A DNA stretch of 64,000 bases from Ignavibacteria bacterium (GTDB lineage: Bacteria; Bacteroidota; Ignavibacteria; Tepidaquicellales; Tepidaquicellaceae). Location of the stretch: positions 516,177 to 580,176 of the forward strand of contig DATAJP010000002.1 in the NCBI GenBank assembly GCA_036262055.1, read 5' to 3'. The notes under the pieces are model-generated. The model was given only the letters and a program-made list of their open reading frames with translations, ran no database searches and was not told the origin of the DNA. Shown piece after piece: positions 38,323 to 57,354 of the stretch (the first letter of the stretch is position 1; the number at the start of each line of letters is the position of its first letter). A program made the position numbers and the translations under genes.

Positions 38323-40347
38323 TCACCCTCTCATATATATCATCAACGCCGAAATATCTGATGGACGTACTCCCGAAATTCGCATCGCCTGCCCTATCGA
38401 GCGCGGACGAACTTTCTTCAGCTTCTCCATCGCCTCCGCAGAAATCGATTTCAGCTTCTCGTATTTAAAATCATCAGGAATCGTCAGGTCTTCATTCTTG
38501 TTAAACGTATCTACAATTTCATGCTGGCGCTTTATGTACCCGCTGTATTTTATGTCGATGTCAATCTGCTCGAGCACTTCCTCGTTACTCAGAACTTCCT
38601 GAATCAATTTATTTTCCTTAAACGCATCGATGCTGAAAAGCTCTTTTGTTTTCACGTCATTGCGCTTCACAAGATTTGCAATGAACTCCCCTTGCGAAAT
38701 CTCCGACGAGTTAATCGATTTCAAAAATTCATTCGCCTGCGAAGGCACAAGCGTATTCGAATTTAAATAAACCAGCGCCTCGTTAATCAGCTCTTTCTTT
38801 TCATCAAGCTTGTCAATCATTTCCTTATCAATCAATCCGAGCTCATAACCTTTTTGCATCAGTCGCAAATCGGCATTATCCTGTCTTAATATCAAACGAT
38901 ATTCTGCGCTTGAAGTAAACATTCTATACGGCTCTTCAGGACATTTGTTAATCAAATCATCAATCAGCACACCGATATATCCCTCGCTTCGCTTCAATAT
39001 AAACGGCTCTTTGTCCTTCAGCTTCAACGCAGCATTTACACCTGCAATAAATCCCTGCGCCGCTGCTTCTTCATAACCCGACGTCCCGTTTATCTGTCCC
39101 GCGAGATATAACCCCTCGACAATTTTCGTCTCGAGTGTAAGCTTTGTTTGATGAGTCGGAAAAAAATCATATTCAACCGCATAACCCTGCTTCACGAGCT
39201 TAACATTCTCAAGTCCCGGAATTGTTCGCGCTGCTTTTTGCTGAACGTCAACCGGCAGACTCGTAGAAAATCCATTCATGTAAATCGTCTCGCCGTTCAA
39301 TGTCTCCGGCTCTAAAAAAATATGATGTCTCGGCTTTTCCGAAAATCTTGAAATCTTATCTTCGATGGAAGGACAGTAACGCGGACCAATGCCTTTTATT
39401 CTGCCCGTGAACATCGGCGACTCTTCAAAACCCGTTCGCAAAATATCATGCGTCGCTTCGTTAGTATATGTAATGAAACAATCGATCTGTTTTTTCTCGG
39501 GAAAATTTTTCTTGTCCGTTCTGTATGAAAACGGTTTTGGGTCATCATCACCGGGCTGAACTTCCGTCTTTGAAAAATCAATCGTGTTAATATCCAACCG
39601 TGGGGGAGTGCCCGTCTTCAATCGGCCTGTCTCAAATCCCATTCCGAGCAAACATTCCGAGAGACCCGTTGCAGATTTTTCTCCCAATCTACCGCCTGCT
39701 GTTTGCGATTGTCCCGTATGCATTATCGCATTCAAAAAAGTCCCCGACGTAATTATCACCGACTTACACTCAATCTCATAACCCAGCGAAGTCTTTATTC
39801 CCTTAATCTTATATTTATAACCGGACAACAATTCTTCTTCACTGATACCATTCACACTCTTTTCATTCACCACTTCGCCACTCCACGACTTCACATTTGA
39901 CTCTTCACCATTTCGCATTTGATTCTTCACCACTTCACCACCTCGCCACTTCACCTCTTGAACTACCAGCTCCTGAACCATATCCTGAACAAGAGTGATG
40001 CCGTCTGTTTTACGAATCAGCTTCGCCGCCTCGAGTGAATACAAATCTTTATCCGATTGACATCTCGGCGACCATACTGCAGGACCTTTCGAGCGGTTCA
40101 ACATTTTAAATTGAATGCCCGTTTTGTCCGCAAGAATTCCCATCACCCCGCCAAGCGCATCAATCTCACGAACCAGGTGTCCCTTTGCTGTTCCGCCGAT
40201 TGCAGGGTTACAGCTCATTCGCCCGATTGCATTCAAATCCATCGTCACAAGCCCGACCGAAAACCCCATCTTAGCGCAAGCATACGACGCCTCAACTCCG
40301 GCATGCCCTGCCCCGATAACAATTATATCAAAATATTTCTTCGCCAT
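38323..40347 (-). CDS. mnmG: tRNA uridine-5-carboxymethylaminomethyl(34) synthase MnmG (GidA)
   Basis: FAD-dependent enzyme that, with MnmE, modifies U34 of certain tRNAs. FAD motif 'GAGHAGVEA' (12-20), 'NPAIGGTAKGHLVREIDALGG', 'KGPAVWSPRCQSDKDLY', 'FLEPETL', 'INGTSGYEEAAAQGF' and the C-terminal 'RPRSIGQAMRISGVRPSDISAL'. At 674 aa it is about 45 residues longer than usual. Residues about 131-178 ('KWRGGEVVKNQMRNGEESNV' and so on) are an insertion encoded by a low-complexity repeat, placed between the strand 'QELVVQE' and 'KIKGIKTSLGYEIECKSVII'. The frame is kept. It lies next to the presumed origin; mnmE and rsmG are not here. Confidence 0.95.
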   Translation of the reverse strand: MAKKYFDIIVIGAGHAGVEASYACAKMGFSVGLVTMDLNAIGRMSCNPAIGGTAKGHLVREIDALGGVMGILADKTGIQFKMLNRSKGPAVWSPRCQSDKDLYSLEAAKLIRKTDGITLVQDMVQELVVQEVKWRGGEVVKNQMRNGEESNVKSWSGEVVNEKSVNGISEEELLSGYKYKIKGIKTSLGYEIECKSVIITSGTFLNAIMHTGQSQTAGGRLGEKSATGLSECLLGMGFETGRLKTGTPPRLDINTIDFSKTEVQPGDDDPKPFSYRTDKKNFPEKKQIDCFITYTNEATHDILRTGFEESPMFTGRIKGIGPRYCPSIEDKISRFSEKPRHHIFLEPETLNGETIYMNGFSTSLPVDVQQKAARTIPGLENVKLVKQGYAVEYDFFPTHQTKLTLETKIVEGLYLAGQINGTSGYEEAAAQGFIAGVNAALKLKDKEPFILKRSEGYIGVLIDDLINKCPEEPYRMFTSSAEYRLILRQDNADLRLMQKGYELGLIDKEMIDKLDEKKELINEALVYLNSNTLVPSQANEFLKSINSSEISQGEFIANLVKRNDVKTKELFSIDAFKENKLIQEVLSNEEVLEQIDIDIKYSGYIKRQHEIVDTFNKNEDLTIPDDFKYEKLKSISAEAMEKLKKVRPRSIGQAMRISGVRPSDISALMIYMRG
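39868..39957. repeat. Low-complexity CACTTCGCCA-type repeat inserted in mnmG
   Basis: The plus strand reads CACCACTTCGCCACTCCACG, then CTTCACCATTTCGC and TTCACCACTTCACCACCTCG. These are degenerate tandem units of about 8-10 bp (TTCACCAC/TTCGCCAC). It fills the insertion seen in MnmG and preserves the frame. Confidence 0.8.
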
Positions 40348-40497
40348 AAATTTAACAATAAAATTACGAGAAAATATATTGATTATCTATTCAAATTCTA
40401 ATATCTTATTTATATAACAGTAGTTTATATCTAAATATTGTTAAAACAACGTTTATTTATTTAAATCAAAATTGTTTCACGTGAAACAATTCAAATA
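40348..40497. other. Candidate replication origin region
   Basis: AT-rich 150-bp gap between divergent mnmG (-) and the metallo-hydrolase (+), with a perfect parS at its right end. In hand-counted samples the plus strand changes from C-rich (C20:G11 in 38341-38400) to G-rich (C7:G16 in 40501-40560) across this gap, and the main gene direction switches too. I found no canonical DnaA box TTATCCACA here, so DnaA loading could occur nearby rather than in this gap. Confidence 0.5.
40473..40488. promoter_or_regulatory. parS centromere site 1
   Basis: TGTTTCACGTGAAACA, a perfect match to the universal bacterial parS palindrome bound by ParB. Symmetry extends to 22 bp (40470-40491). It lies 10 bp before the ATG of the metallo-hydrolase. 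Confidence 0.93.
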
Positions 40498-41862
40498 ATG
40501 CAAAATAATCTCATTTTTAAGGTTTTGGGTGGTGGAAATGAAATCGGGGCGAACTCGTTTTTGTTTTCTTATGGCAAGGACAATTTTGTTATGGATTGCG
40601 GTCTGCATCCTCGCAAAAAAGGGCGAGAGATTTTTCCGAACTATGAGATTATAAAAGACATGACCGTTCAGAATTTAATGATAACTCATGCGCATAATGA
40701 CCATATCGGGGCACTGCCGTATTTCCTGAACCTGTTTCCGTATGCGAACATTTACATGACCAAGCCGACGCATTCGATTGCTGAGATTACTCTGGCGAAT
40801 ACTGCATTTTTGATGGAGAGGGAATTCGAGGATGAATGGGACAAATCGCAGATTAAGTATTACACCGAAGAGACTTTGAACCTGATTCCGATGATTATCA
40901 AGCAGCGGGATTACAACGAGAAAACAAGTTTGAATGAACAGGTTAATTTTCAATTTACCGATGCAGGACACTTGCTTGGCTCGGCGGGTGTGCTGTTGAA
41001 CGTTGAAAACAAGCGGGTTTTCTTTACAGGGGACATCAACTTCCGCAGCCAGAAGCTCATTCCAAAAGCAGAGCTTCCGAAGCATAAGATTGACGTTTTG
41101 ATTACCGAAACCACCAACGGATTAGCGGCTACAATGCCTGATTATGATCGTGAGCAGGAACGTTTGGCTCAGTTCATTAATAAGATAACCAACAGAGGCG
41201 GGTCGGTTTTGATACCGGTTTTTGCGCTCGGGAAGGCATCGGAAATGCTCGCACGTATCGATGAAATGATGATGAAGAATAAGATTCCGCACGTTCCGGT
41301 TTATTTCAGCTCGCTTGCAAAAGCGTTAAATAACGTTTATGATGACTTTAATTATACCGTTCGGCGAACCAAGCAGGGTTTCAAATTAAGCGACATTGAC
41401 GTTCAGATTCTAAAGCGGGAGGACATCCAAAGGGGAGAGTTTTATAAGAAGCCGGGGATTATCCTGGCGACGAGCGGAATGGTTATTGAGGGGACATACT
41501 CTTACAAGATTGCCAAGAACTTTCTGCGCAACCGCAATTTTGGAATTGCGATGTGCGGGTATTGCGATCCTGAAACACCAGGGTACCACATTAAGAACGC
41601 CGAGAAGTTCGAGATAATTTACCTGGACAAATACGGTGTCGATACCGCGGAGGTTTTGTGCCACATCGAAAACTTCAGCTTCTCGTCGCACTCGACTAAG
41701 GAGGGAATTATGCACATGGTCGAAACACTTGACCCCGAGCTTATCGTGTTGGTTCATGGTGATGAGCCGGCGATTGATTCCGTCGGCAAGGAGATAGTGG
41801 AAAAATTTCCGAACAAACGCGTTCTCGCACCTGAGAAGTATAAAGATTATCAGTTATTATAA
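40498..41862 (+). CDS. MBL-fold metallo-hydrolase with beta-CASP domain (RNA-processing type)
   Basis: 454 aa. The metallo-beta-lactamase core has the H-x-H-x-D-H motif in 'ITHAHNDHIGALPYF', a further His in 'DAGHLLGSAGVLL' and the Asp in 'FTGDINF'. The beta-CASP part follows ('RGGSVLIPVFALGKASEML'; 'GIILATSGMVIEGTYSYKIA'), ending with 'IENFSFSSHSTKEGIMHMVE' and 'LVHGDEPAIDSVGKEI'. This is the CPSF73/YSH1-like branch, which includes RNA endo- and exonucleases. Substrate unknown. Flanked on both sides by identical parS sites. Confidence 0.88.
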   Translation: MQNNLIFKVLGGGNEIGANSFLFSYGKDNFVMDCGLHPRKKGREIFPNYEIIKDMTVQNLMITHAHNDHIGALPYFLNLFPYANIYMTKPTHSIAEITLANTAFLMEREFEDEWDKSQIKYYTEETLNLIPMIIKQRDYNEKTSLNEQVNFQFTDAGHLLGSAGVLLNVENKRVFFTGDINFRSQKLIPKAELPKHKIDVLITETTNGLAATMPDYDREQERLAQFINKITNRGGSVLIPVFALGKASEMLARIDEMMMKNKIPHVPVYFSSLAKALNNVYDDFNYTVRRTKQGFKLSDIDVQILKREDIQRGEFYKKPGIILATSGMVIEGTYSYKIAKNFLRNRNFGIAMCGYCDPETPGYHIKNAEKFEIIYLDKYGVDTAEVLCHIENFSFSSHSTKEGIMHMVETLDPELIVLVHGDEPAIDSVGKEIVEKFPNKRVLAPEKYKDYQLL

Positions 41863-41883
41863 GTGTTACAAATGGATTTGAAT

Positions 41884-41899
41884 TGTTTCACGTGAAACA
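41884..41899. promoter_or_regulatory. parS centromere site 2
   Basis: A second perfect TGTTTCACGTGAAACA, 21 bp after the stop of the metallo-hydrolase gene. The extended 22-bp palindrome (41881-41902) is identical to that of site 1, so the gene is bracketed by two centromere sites 1411 bp apart. Confidence 0.93.
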
Positions 41900-42017
41900 A
41901 TTGGAAGGTCTGTTAAGACTTGACTTATTTATTAAAAACCCCGGTCTGCGCGGGAATGAGTTCTAAAGGGGAATTATAAACTATAGAACTATAAAAACAA
42001 TAGTTTAACATAAATAT

Positions 42018-55255: not shown

Positions 55256-56773
55256 TTAACTATTTTTTAAAGTCTCTTTTACGTGGGAGATTTGGGCGGC
55301 GAATTTTTTGTCGGCTTTTATCTGCTTGTTGATTGTATTGACCGCATAAAGCACCGTAGCGTGGTCCTTGCCGTTGAAAAATGAGCCAATGAGTTGAAGT
55401 GTCATGTCGGTGTATTCCTTTGCGAGAAACATTGCGATCTGCCGCGCCTGAGCTATCTCTTTTGTGCGTTTTTTTGATAGAATGTCACGTTTTTGGATGC
55501 TGTAATAGTCAGAGACTACGTCAAGAATATTTTCGAGAGTTACGTGTTTGTTGCGTTTAGCAACGCCGACTACCCTGTTGACGACTTTCTCTGCGATGTC
55601 GAGAGTTATTTCTCCTTTATAAATAAAAGTGCTCTCGGCAATCATACCTGCGATACATCCCTCGATTGTTCTGATGCTGTCCTTAACGTTTGTCGCGAGG
55701 AAGTTAATTATATCATCAGGAACTTCGACCTGCGCAACCTCAAGTTTTTTCTTTATGATTGCAACACGCATTTCCCAGTTAGGAGGCTGAATGTCAGAGA
55801 CCATTCCCCACTGAAAACGATTGAGCAGTCTTTCTTCGATACCGAGAATTTGATTTATCGGCTTATCGCTCGAGAAAATTATGTGTTTCTTTTCGTGGAA
55901 GAGATAATTAAAAATCTGATAGAAATAATCCTGTGTAGAAGTTTTACCGCTGAGGTTCTGAATGTCATCAATGATTAAAACGTCGAGTGATTTATAAAAT
56001 GCGTCGAGCTTTTTTGTGCCGTAAGGTTTTTTAGTCGAAAAATCCATTTTGTTCTGCGCGATGCTGTCGGTAAATCTGTTTGTGAACTCAGATGCTGTTG
56101 TGTAATAAACTTTTTTCTCTGGATATTTTTTCAGGACTTCGTTCCCTATTGCCTGAACCAGGTGAGTTTTCCCGAGACCTACTCCGCCGAAAACAAAATA
56201 CGGATTATATGCTTTGCCGGGATTGTTTGAAATTGCATAGGCAATCGAAACAGCGAGCTCGTTGTTTTCGCCTTTTACAAGATTTTCAAATGTATTTTTT
56301 GAATAAAGATTTGATTTGAACGGCTCTTCGGGCTGTTGGTTTTCTGATGGTAAATTTGAAACGAGTGTTTTCGGCTCCGCAATTTTTATTGAAGGCGTAA
56401 TTTGCTGAGCTTCGTGGTGTGTATCTGTCGGAGCAGAGAATAAATTCAACTGTGCAATTTCGAATTTTAACTTTGCTTCATCGCCGAGGAGACTTTTAAG
56501 AACGTTATCGATGTCCTTGTTGAAACGTGACTCAATCATACCATAAATGTCATTGTTTGGGACAGTAACGGTAAGGATGTTGTCCTCGTACTTTTCCGGT
56601 TTGAGAAAAGTGAACCAGGTTTCGATTACGCTTTTTTTAATTTTGGTTTCAAGGAGGCGCAGAAAGTTGCTCCAGATTACATCTGCTTCGGTTGTGAGCT
56701 GTGCTGTGTTTTGAACACCTGTGTTTTCTTTGTGAAAGTCGTCTGAGCCGGAAGAGGGTAAAGTATTATTCAA
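55256..56773 (-). CDS. dnaA: Chromosomal replication initiator protein DnaA
   Basis: AAA+ initiator that melts oriC and recruits helicase. 505 aa from a TTG start (56771-56773). Domain I about 28-105 ('WSNFLRLLETKIKKSVIETWF'), a linker (about 110-160), domain III with Walker A 'GGVGLGKTHL' and Walker B 'LDVLIIDDIQ', 'SSDKP', 'RLLNRFQWG', and domain IV ending with the signature 'FNGKDHATVLYAVNTI'. The first about 27 residues (MNNTLPSSGSDDFHKENTGV...) are extra. It is transcribed on the minus strand, toward 40.4 kb. No dnaN or recF follows. Confidence 0.97.
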   Translation of the reverse strand: MNNTLPSSGSDDFHKENTGVQNTAQLTTEADVIWSNFLRLLETKIKKSVIETWFTFLKPEKYEDNILTVTVPNNDIYGMIESRFNKDIDNVLKSLLGDEAKLKFEIAQLNLFSAPTDTHHEAQQITPSIKIAEPKTLVSNLPSENQQPEEPFKSNLYSKNTFENLVKGENNELAVSIAYAISNNPGKAYNPYFVFGGVGLGKTHLVQAIGNEVLKKYPEKKVYYTTASEFTNRFTDSIAQNKMDFSTKKPYGTKKLDAFYKSLDVLIIDDIQNLSGKTSTQDYFYQIFNYLFHEKKHIIFSSDKPINQILGIEERLLNRFQWGMVSDIQPPNWEMRVAIIKKKLEVAQVEVPDDIINFLATNVKDSIRTIEGCIAGMIAESTFIYKGEITLDIAEKVVNRVVGVAKRNKHVTLENILDVVSDYYSIQKRDILSKKRTKEIAQARQIAMFLAKEYTDMTLQLIGSFFNGKDHATVLYAVNTINKQIKADKKFAAQISHVKETLKNS

Positions 56774-57354
56774 CGATATAAACTCTTTATATTTTTATTA
56801 ACAAGCTGTTTGGTTTAAAAAAGAACTTTAAGAAACGAATTTATCGGGACAAGCAAAAAGTCATTAATTCACATAATTATTAACATGTGGGCAATAAATT
56901 AAGTACCTGATTTTTATGGATTAATTAAACAGGTAAAAAGTTACTAACAATCGATGTTAGTAGTAATGGTTTAATAATAATAAATTAATATTAAAAAAAT
57001 TACTCAAAAAAGTTATTAACAATTAGCTAACAAAGAACGGGTAAAAGAAATTGATATATAATATTAAAGAAAGTTTTAAACTTAGTCAATAAAGTTTGAA
57101 AAATTTTTTGTTGTTGGTGTGGCAAAGCCATCCCTTCGGGAAGAACACCAACAACGGCGGGTGCGTTTGTTGTGCGCAGGGGTCCCTTGCGGGAGACTCC
57201 TGCGGGAGGGGGAAGGTTTGTGGGAATTGTGATATATGCCCCACACTACTGGGATTCCCGCCTGCGCGGGAATGACTTCCTTTGTTCGTATGCAAAGGAA
57301 AATCAGACTAAAATTATAAATATATTTTGTAAAAGGGTTTGGTTAATTTGCTTA
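56774..57354. promoter_or_regulatory. dnaA upstream region with three TTATTAACA motifs, and repeats
   Basis: TTATTAACA occurs at 56795-56803, 56877-56885 and 57013-57021, all in the same orientation. It is a likely site for regulation of dnaA. The region 56774-57110 is AT-rich; 57115-57300 holds GC-rich repeat modules (CTCCTGCGGGAG-type and family A at 57252-57276). A reading frame that extends alr upstream through this region to 57172 is rejected. Confidence 0.45.

Follow-up and report, generated by a model that had tools for sequence, protein, structure and literature searches.

Do two identical palindromes that bracket a single gene act on that gene, or do they serve the chromosome as a whole? 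The question is raised by a locus within the window, as we call the whole stretch of 64,000 nucleotides analysed here (C2:516177–580176), where the 16-bp palindrome TGTTTCACGTGAAACA is found on both sides of a gene for a beta-CASP hydrolase. The features of the window are as follows:

38323–40347, minus strand: mnmG (gidA), with parS conserved next to it throughout the class
40348–40497, no strand: intergenic region between the divergent mnmG and beta-CASP genes, A+T-rich, candidate origin region
40473–40488, no strand: putative parS site 1, 16-bp core, in the divergent mnmG/beta-CASP intergenic region
40498–41862, plus strand: gene for an RNase-like MBL/beta-CASP/RMMBL hydrolase of 454 aa, assigned by domain search
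41884–41899, no strand: putative parS site 2, 16-bp core, 3′ of the beta-CASP gene
55256–56773, minus strand: dnaA, the sole copy detected genome-wide, some 16 kb away from site 1

From the sequence we consider it highly probable that the pair constitutes the parS centromere of the chromosome and marks the origin region of an Ignavibacteria-like bacterium. ParB would bind at both sites and the pair would function in segregation, and the arrangement of one gene between two parS sites looks incidental.

The two palindromes and the gene between them

As described in an earlier note on this DNA, the 16-mer is present with 0 mismatches at both positions in the window, and each copy is part of the 22-bp palindrome AATTGTTTCACGTGAAACAATT, which has the same letters at 40470–40491 and at 41881–41902. 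The perfect inverted repeat reaches 27 bp (40470–40496 versus 41876–41902), with a 5-bp asymmetric extension pointing inward at both sites. The sites were said to lie just before the ATG and just after the stop codon of the hydrolase gene, and indeed 9 bp separate site 1, in the 5′ leader, from the ATG, and 21 bp lie between the stop codon and site 2.

Besides these two, the window contains no site resembling TGTTTCACGTGAAACA with up to three mismatches. When the genome (2,869,104 bp in four contigs) was searched for the 16-mer and for parAB, only the same two exact copies, spaced 1.4 kb apart, and a single parAB operon were returned; 0.0013 exact copies would be expected by chance in the whole genome (first-order Markov estimate). 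Sites with two mismatches number three genome-wide, and the reversed control pattern gave two matches. Further exact copies away from the putative origin region are thus absent from the assembly, which could lack more parS sites because it consists of four contigs and is 95% complete. No known Rfam RNA elements were found around the pair.

The hydrolase comprises the domains Lactamase_B, Beta-Casp, and RMMBL, and its closest NCBIfam model is aCPSF1, with a score under the model cutoff. Its gene is separated from mnmG by an A+T-rich gap of 150 bp which contains site 1. It was detected in 4 of 44 genomes (E ≤ 1e-60), in each case at most 3.5 kb from mnmG; a search of the protein against the contig collection gave no match, and a search with mnmG retrieved two relatives, an 'Ignavibacteria bacterium' MAG and 'Bacteroidetes bacterium SZAS-86'.

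The ParAB proteins and the putative origin region

ParB loads at parS, spreads onto adjoining DNA, and together with ParA parts the replicated origins (PMC7333895). Both proteins are encoded in the genome of the window. The earlier note was right that their genes are missing from the window itself, as the parAB operon is found at C2:677336–679191, about 120 kb from parS and mnmG. The ParB gene (C2:678301–679191) directly follows the gene of a ParA-like ATPase and is present in single copy; its product scores 159 bits with TIGR00180, above the cut-off, aligns to the structures of Spo0J and of the Caulobacter and Helicobacter ParB proteins, and retains the GERRxRA motif and the equivalent of R173.

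The organization is in good agreement with the ParABS systems of B. subtilis (Soj/Spo0J–parS) and Caulobacter (ParAB–parS): the sites have the exact parS consensus, they are few and near the putative origin, there is one parAB operon, and the ParB protein has an N-terminal CTPase motif and an HTH. In contrast to these systems, parAB lies far from parS and mnmG, the pair brackets a beta-CASP gene, and the ParB protein has alanine instead of glycine at the equivalent of position 201 and serine instead of glycine at that of position 170.

Several observations place the pair near the origin. The cumulative GC skew (G minus C) over the window reaches its minimum at position 40512, 24 bp from site 1 and at the right edge of the mnmG/beta-CASP intergenic region, and dnaA, which the earlier note did not mention, is located 16 kb away. 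On the 1.17-Mb contig C2, for which the skew was computed from sampled stretches, it is mostly negative leftward and positive for ∼240 kb rightward. As the skew changes sign at the divergent mnmG/beta-CASP pair, gene orientation adds to the skew; since gene orientation flips at the same spot, skew alone cannot place the origin to the base. Clusters of parS at a GC-skew switch mark the origin even when dnaA is located elsewhere (PMC10197239), and we infer that oriC lies at the pair. Thus, the proposal that the sites lie near oriC is supported, given that parAB is present in the genome, the sites are unique, the skew minimum falls on them, and parS adjoins mnmG in the relatives.

The single-copy ParB protein, a CTPase clamp, would load at the two parS sites, slide, and bridge over the surrounding DNA. 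Via ParB–parS, ParA and probably also SMC would then separate the newly replicated origins, and the pair would mark the origin region. The pair may well be called a compact centromere, as had been suggested, if this is taken to mean simply a small group of parS sites; in an uncultured Ignavibacteria-like lineage it would serve as a clean marker of both centromere and origin.

A DnaA-box cluster at 40512 was considered as an origin element and rejected: there is no cluster at the skew minimum and the window contains 13 matches versus 16.8 expected. Upstream of dnaA the sequence TTATTAACA occurs three times within ∼220 bp (window positions 56795, 56877, and 57013), possibly as a variant of the DnaA box and an alternative origin element.

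Location of parS in related genomes

The relatives are mostly represented by fragmented draft genomes. The exact 16-mer is present in 40 of 99 of them, the genome of the window being counted, and in 34 of these 40 mnmG is found within the fetched ±5 kb. Most of the genomes that do not have an exact copy carry a near-match parS beside mnmG. Pairs of parS sites 26–50 bp apart adjoin mnmG in G006, G007, G018, G019, G026, G027, and G028. Some 20 members of the class have mnmG itself bracketed by a parS pair, for example G045, G048, G049, G055, G059, G067, G077, and G086 and, where the sites are near matches, G046, G052, G065, G070, G079, G083, G088, G091, and G094. Furthermore, an open reading frame of ∼150 aa has parS at or near both ends in G029, G032, G034, and G038, and members of family f3 carry exact parS pairs away from mnmG. 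In most members of the family parB is unlinked to mnmG or distant from it.

The position near mnmG is therefore the conserved part and the layout varies, which argues that the bracketed gene is incidental. We suggest that the beta-CASP gene is found between the sites because these occupy the two intergenic regions nearest to mnmG and the origin, and not because it is a target of ParB.

Alternative explanations for the arrangement

A ParB protein bound 9 bp before the ATG and past the stop codon might repress the beta-CASP gene or time its expression in the cell cycle. The location of site 1 in the 5′ leader would suit such a role, and in P. aeruginosa ParB indeed represses the neighbours of parS3 and parS4, whose expression is raised upon loss of parB or parS (PMC5521831). 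On the other hand, B. subtilis ParB at its native level leaves the parS neighbours unsilenced (PMC7333895), and the bracket around the gene is absent in the gene-carrying relatives G003, G006, and G018. G003, the nearest relative with the gene (68% identical), lacks the upstream site: no parS is found in the 142 bp that separate mnmG from the beta-CASP gene, and both copies lie 3′ of the latter. In G006 and G018 the pair adjoins mnmG, with two genes between it and the beta-CASP gene, and other genomes bracket mnmG or another open reading frame instead. We therefore regard control of the gene by ParB as unlikely. A regulatory side effect on the gene is conceivable, and nothing in our analysis favours it. 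The earlier note had suggested that ParB spreading from the pair could silence or mark the gene; this is unsupported, as parS tracks mnmG and none of the relatives examined keeps both sites around the same gene. The striking layout would thus have little gene-specific meaning.

It is even less probable, and in our view very doubtful, that the 27-bp inverted repeat bounds a mobile or invertible unit and that an insertion or inversion placed the gene between the two copies. The repeat is perfect and its asymmetric extensions point inward, as such a unit might have them. Nevertheless, the palindrome is parS itself and has unrelated flanks in relatives, the orientation of the beta-CASP gene relative to mnmG is the same in G003, G006, and G018, and no recognisable transposase or recombinase is encoded among the genes scanned around the beta-CASP gene. 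In addition, the flank AATTCAAAT is also found at parS in G003, G007, and G028, which have no such unit. Its recurrences are:

window 40470–40496 and 41876–41902; L037 4991; L041 5051; L049 5053: parS flank AATTCAAAT

That chance palindromes or the sites of another regulator are at hand, for example of a CACGTG-binding repressor, is hardly credible: 16-bp palindromes with a CACGTG core suit some regulators too, but only ∼0.001 copies are expected, the sites have the exact parS consensus, parAB is present, and parS is associated with mnmG class-wide.

In G003 the site 3′ of the beta-CASP gene shares the inner flank ATTTGAATTG of site 2. A role of AATTCAAAT as a general extension of parS was rejected, as it is found at five sites only, in the four genomes G000, G003, G007, and G028. 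Other genera carry it at individual parS sites, which suggests either that a longer unit was copied or that the flank is an additional element for recognition.

Changed parS cores and arginine 223 of ParB

We also compared the sites and the ParB proteins within the family. Eleven members of the family that have no exact parS carry, upstream of mnmG, TGTTTC-nnnn-GAAACA sites with another core. The outer arms TGTTTC/GAAACA and the position by mnmG are unchanged, and ACGT is replaced by TCAA (TTGA on the other strand), TTAA, TCAG, CCGA, or TCAC/GCAC. These genomes belong to the genera g2, g10, g11, g13, g14, and g16. The changed-core sites are not background, because a reversed control of the pattern gave 0–1 matches per genome and the matches lie beside mnmG. 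The loci compared are:

L123, L124, L127, L128, L130, L131, L133, L134, L138, L141, L144: changed-core sites upstream of mnmG
L147–L174: ParB loci of the changed-core comparison

The ParB proteins of 89 genomes were aligned and are numbered here after the genome of the window. Residue 223 is arginine in 55 of 55 genomes for which an ACGT-type site was verified, be it near mnmG or, as in f3, at another place, and lysine, glutamine, or glutamate in 11 of 11 changed-core genomes. Of the 291 alignment columns, this one alone has no residue in common between the two groups, the groups having been assigned from site lists and the count being inflated by kinship within clades. By alignment, residue 223 corresponds to R227 of the Caulobacter protein, for which we found no base contact listed (residue numbers from PMC7383237). 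On an mnmG tree, built with a quick method, the core label needs three changes and therefore two or three switches. The genome of the window has kept both R223 and the ACGT core.

These sequence comparisons make it fairly likely that the ParB–parS code was rewritten two or three times in the family and that the ParB proteins which lost R223 read the changed cores. The core change together with the arginine loss suggests a natural re-specification of ParB–parS. The changed cores deserve attention, as the parS core is usually well conserved and is changed here alongside a single ParB residue; if the proposal is true, the family would offer a natural experiment on rewriting an essential protein–DNA code.

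There is a precedent in Noc and its site NBS, where a 16-bp site and a small number of ParB residues were changed jointly (PMC7383237). In both cases a change of the site is accompanied by a change of the protein, in the relatives the loss of one arginine. Noc, however, is a paralogue beside ParB, whereas in the relatives the single ParB itself appears to be changed, and the change affects the site core and the R227 equivalent instead of residues 173 and 201. The genome of the window does not have such a change. The R173 equivalent is conserved in every ParB of its family, and many of these proteins (L147–L174) have alanine at the 201 equivalent and serine at the 170 equivalent. G201 was described as absolutely conserved in ParB, and position 170 as a conserved glycine (PMC7383237).

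In genus g17 of family f2 (L050–L055, L235, L237–L240) sites with the cores ACGG/CCGT or ACAG are found beside mnmG, often with ACGT sites. These sites are intermediate between those of parS and Noc, and the ParB proteins of this group retain the arginine and G201.
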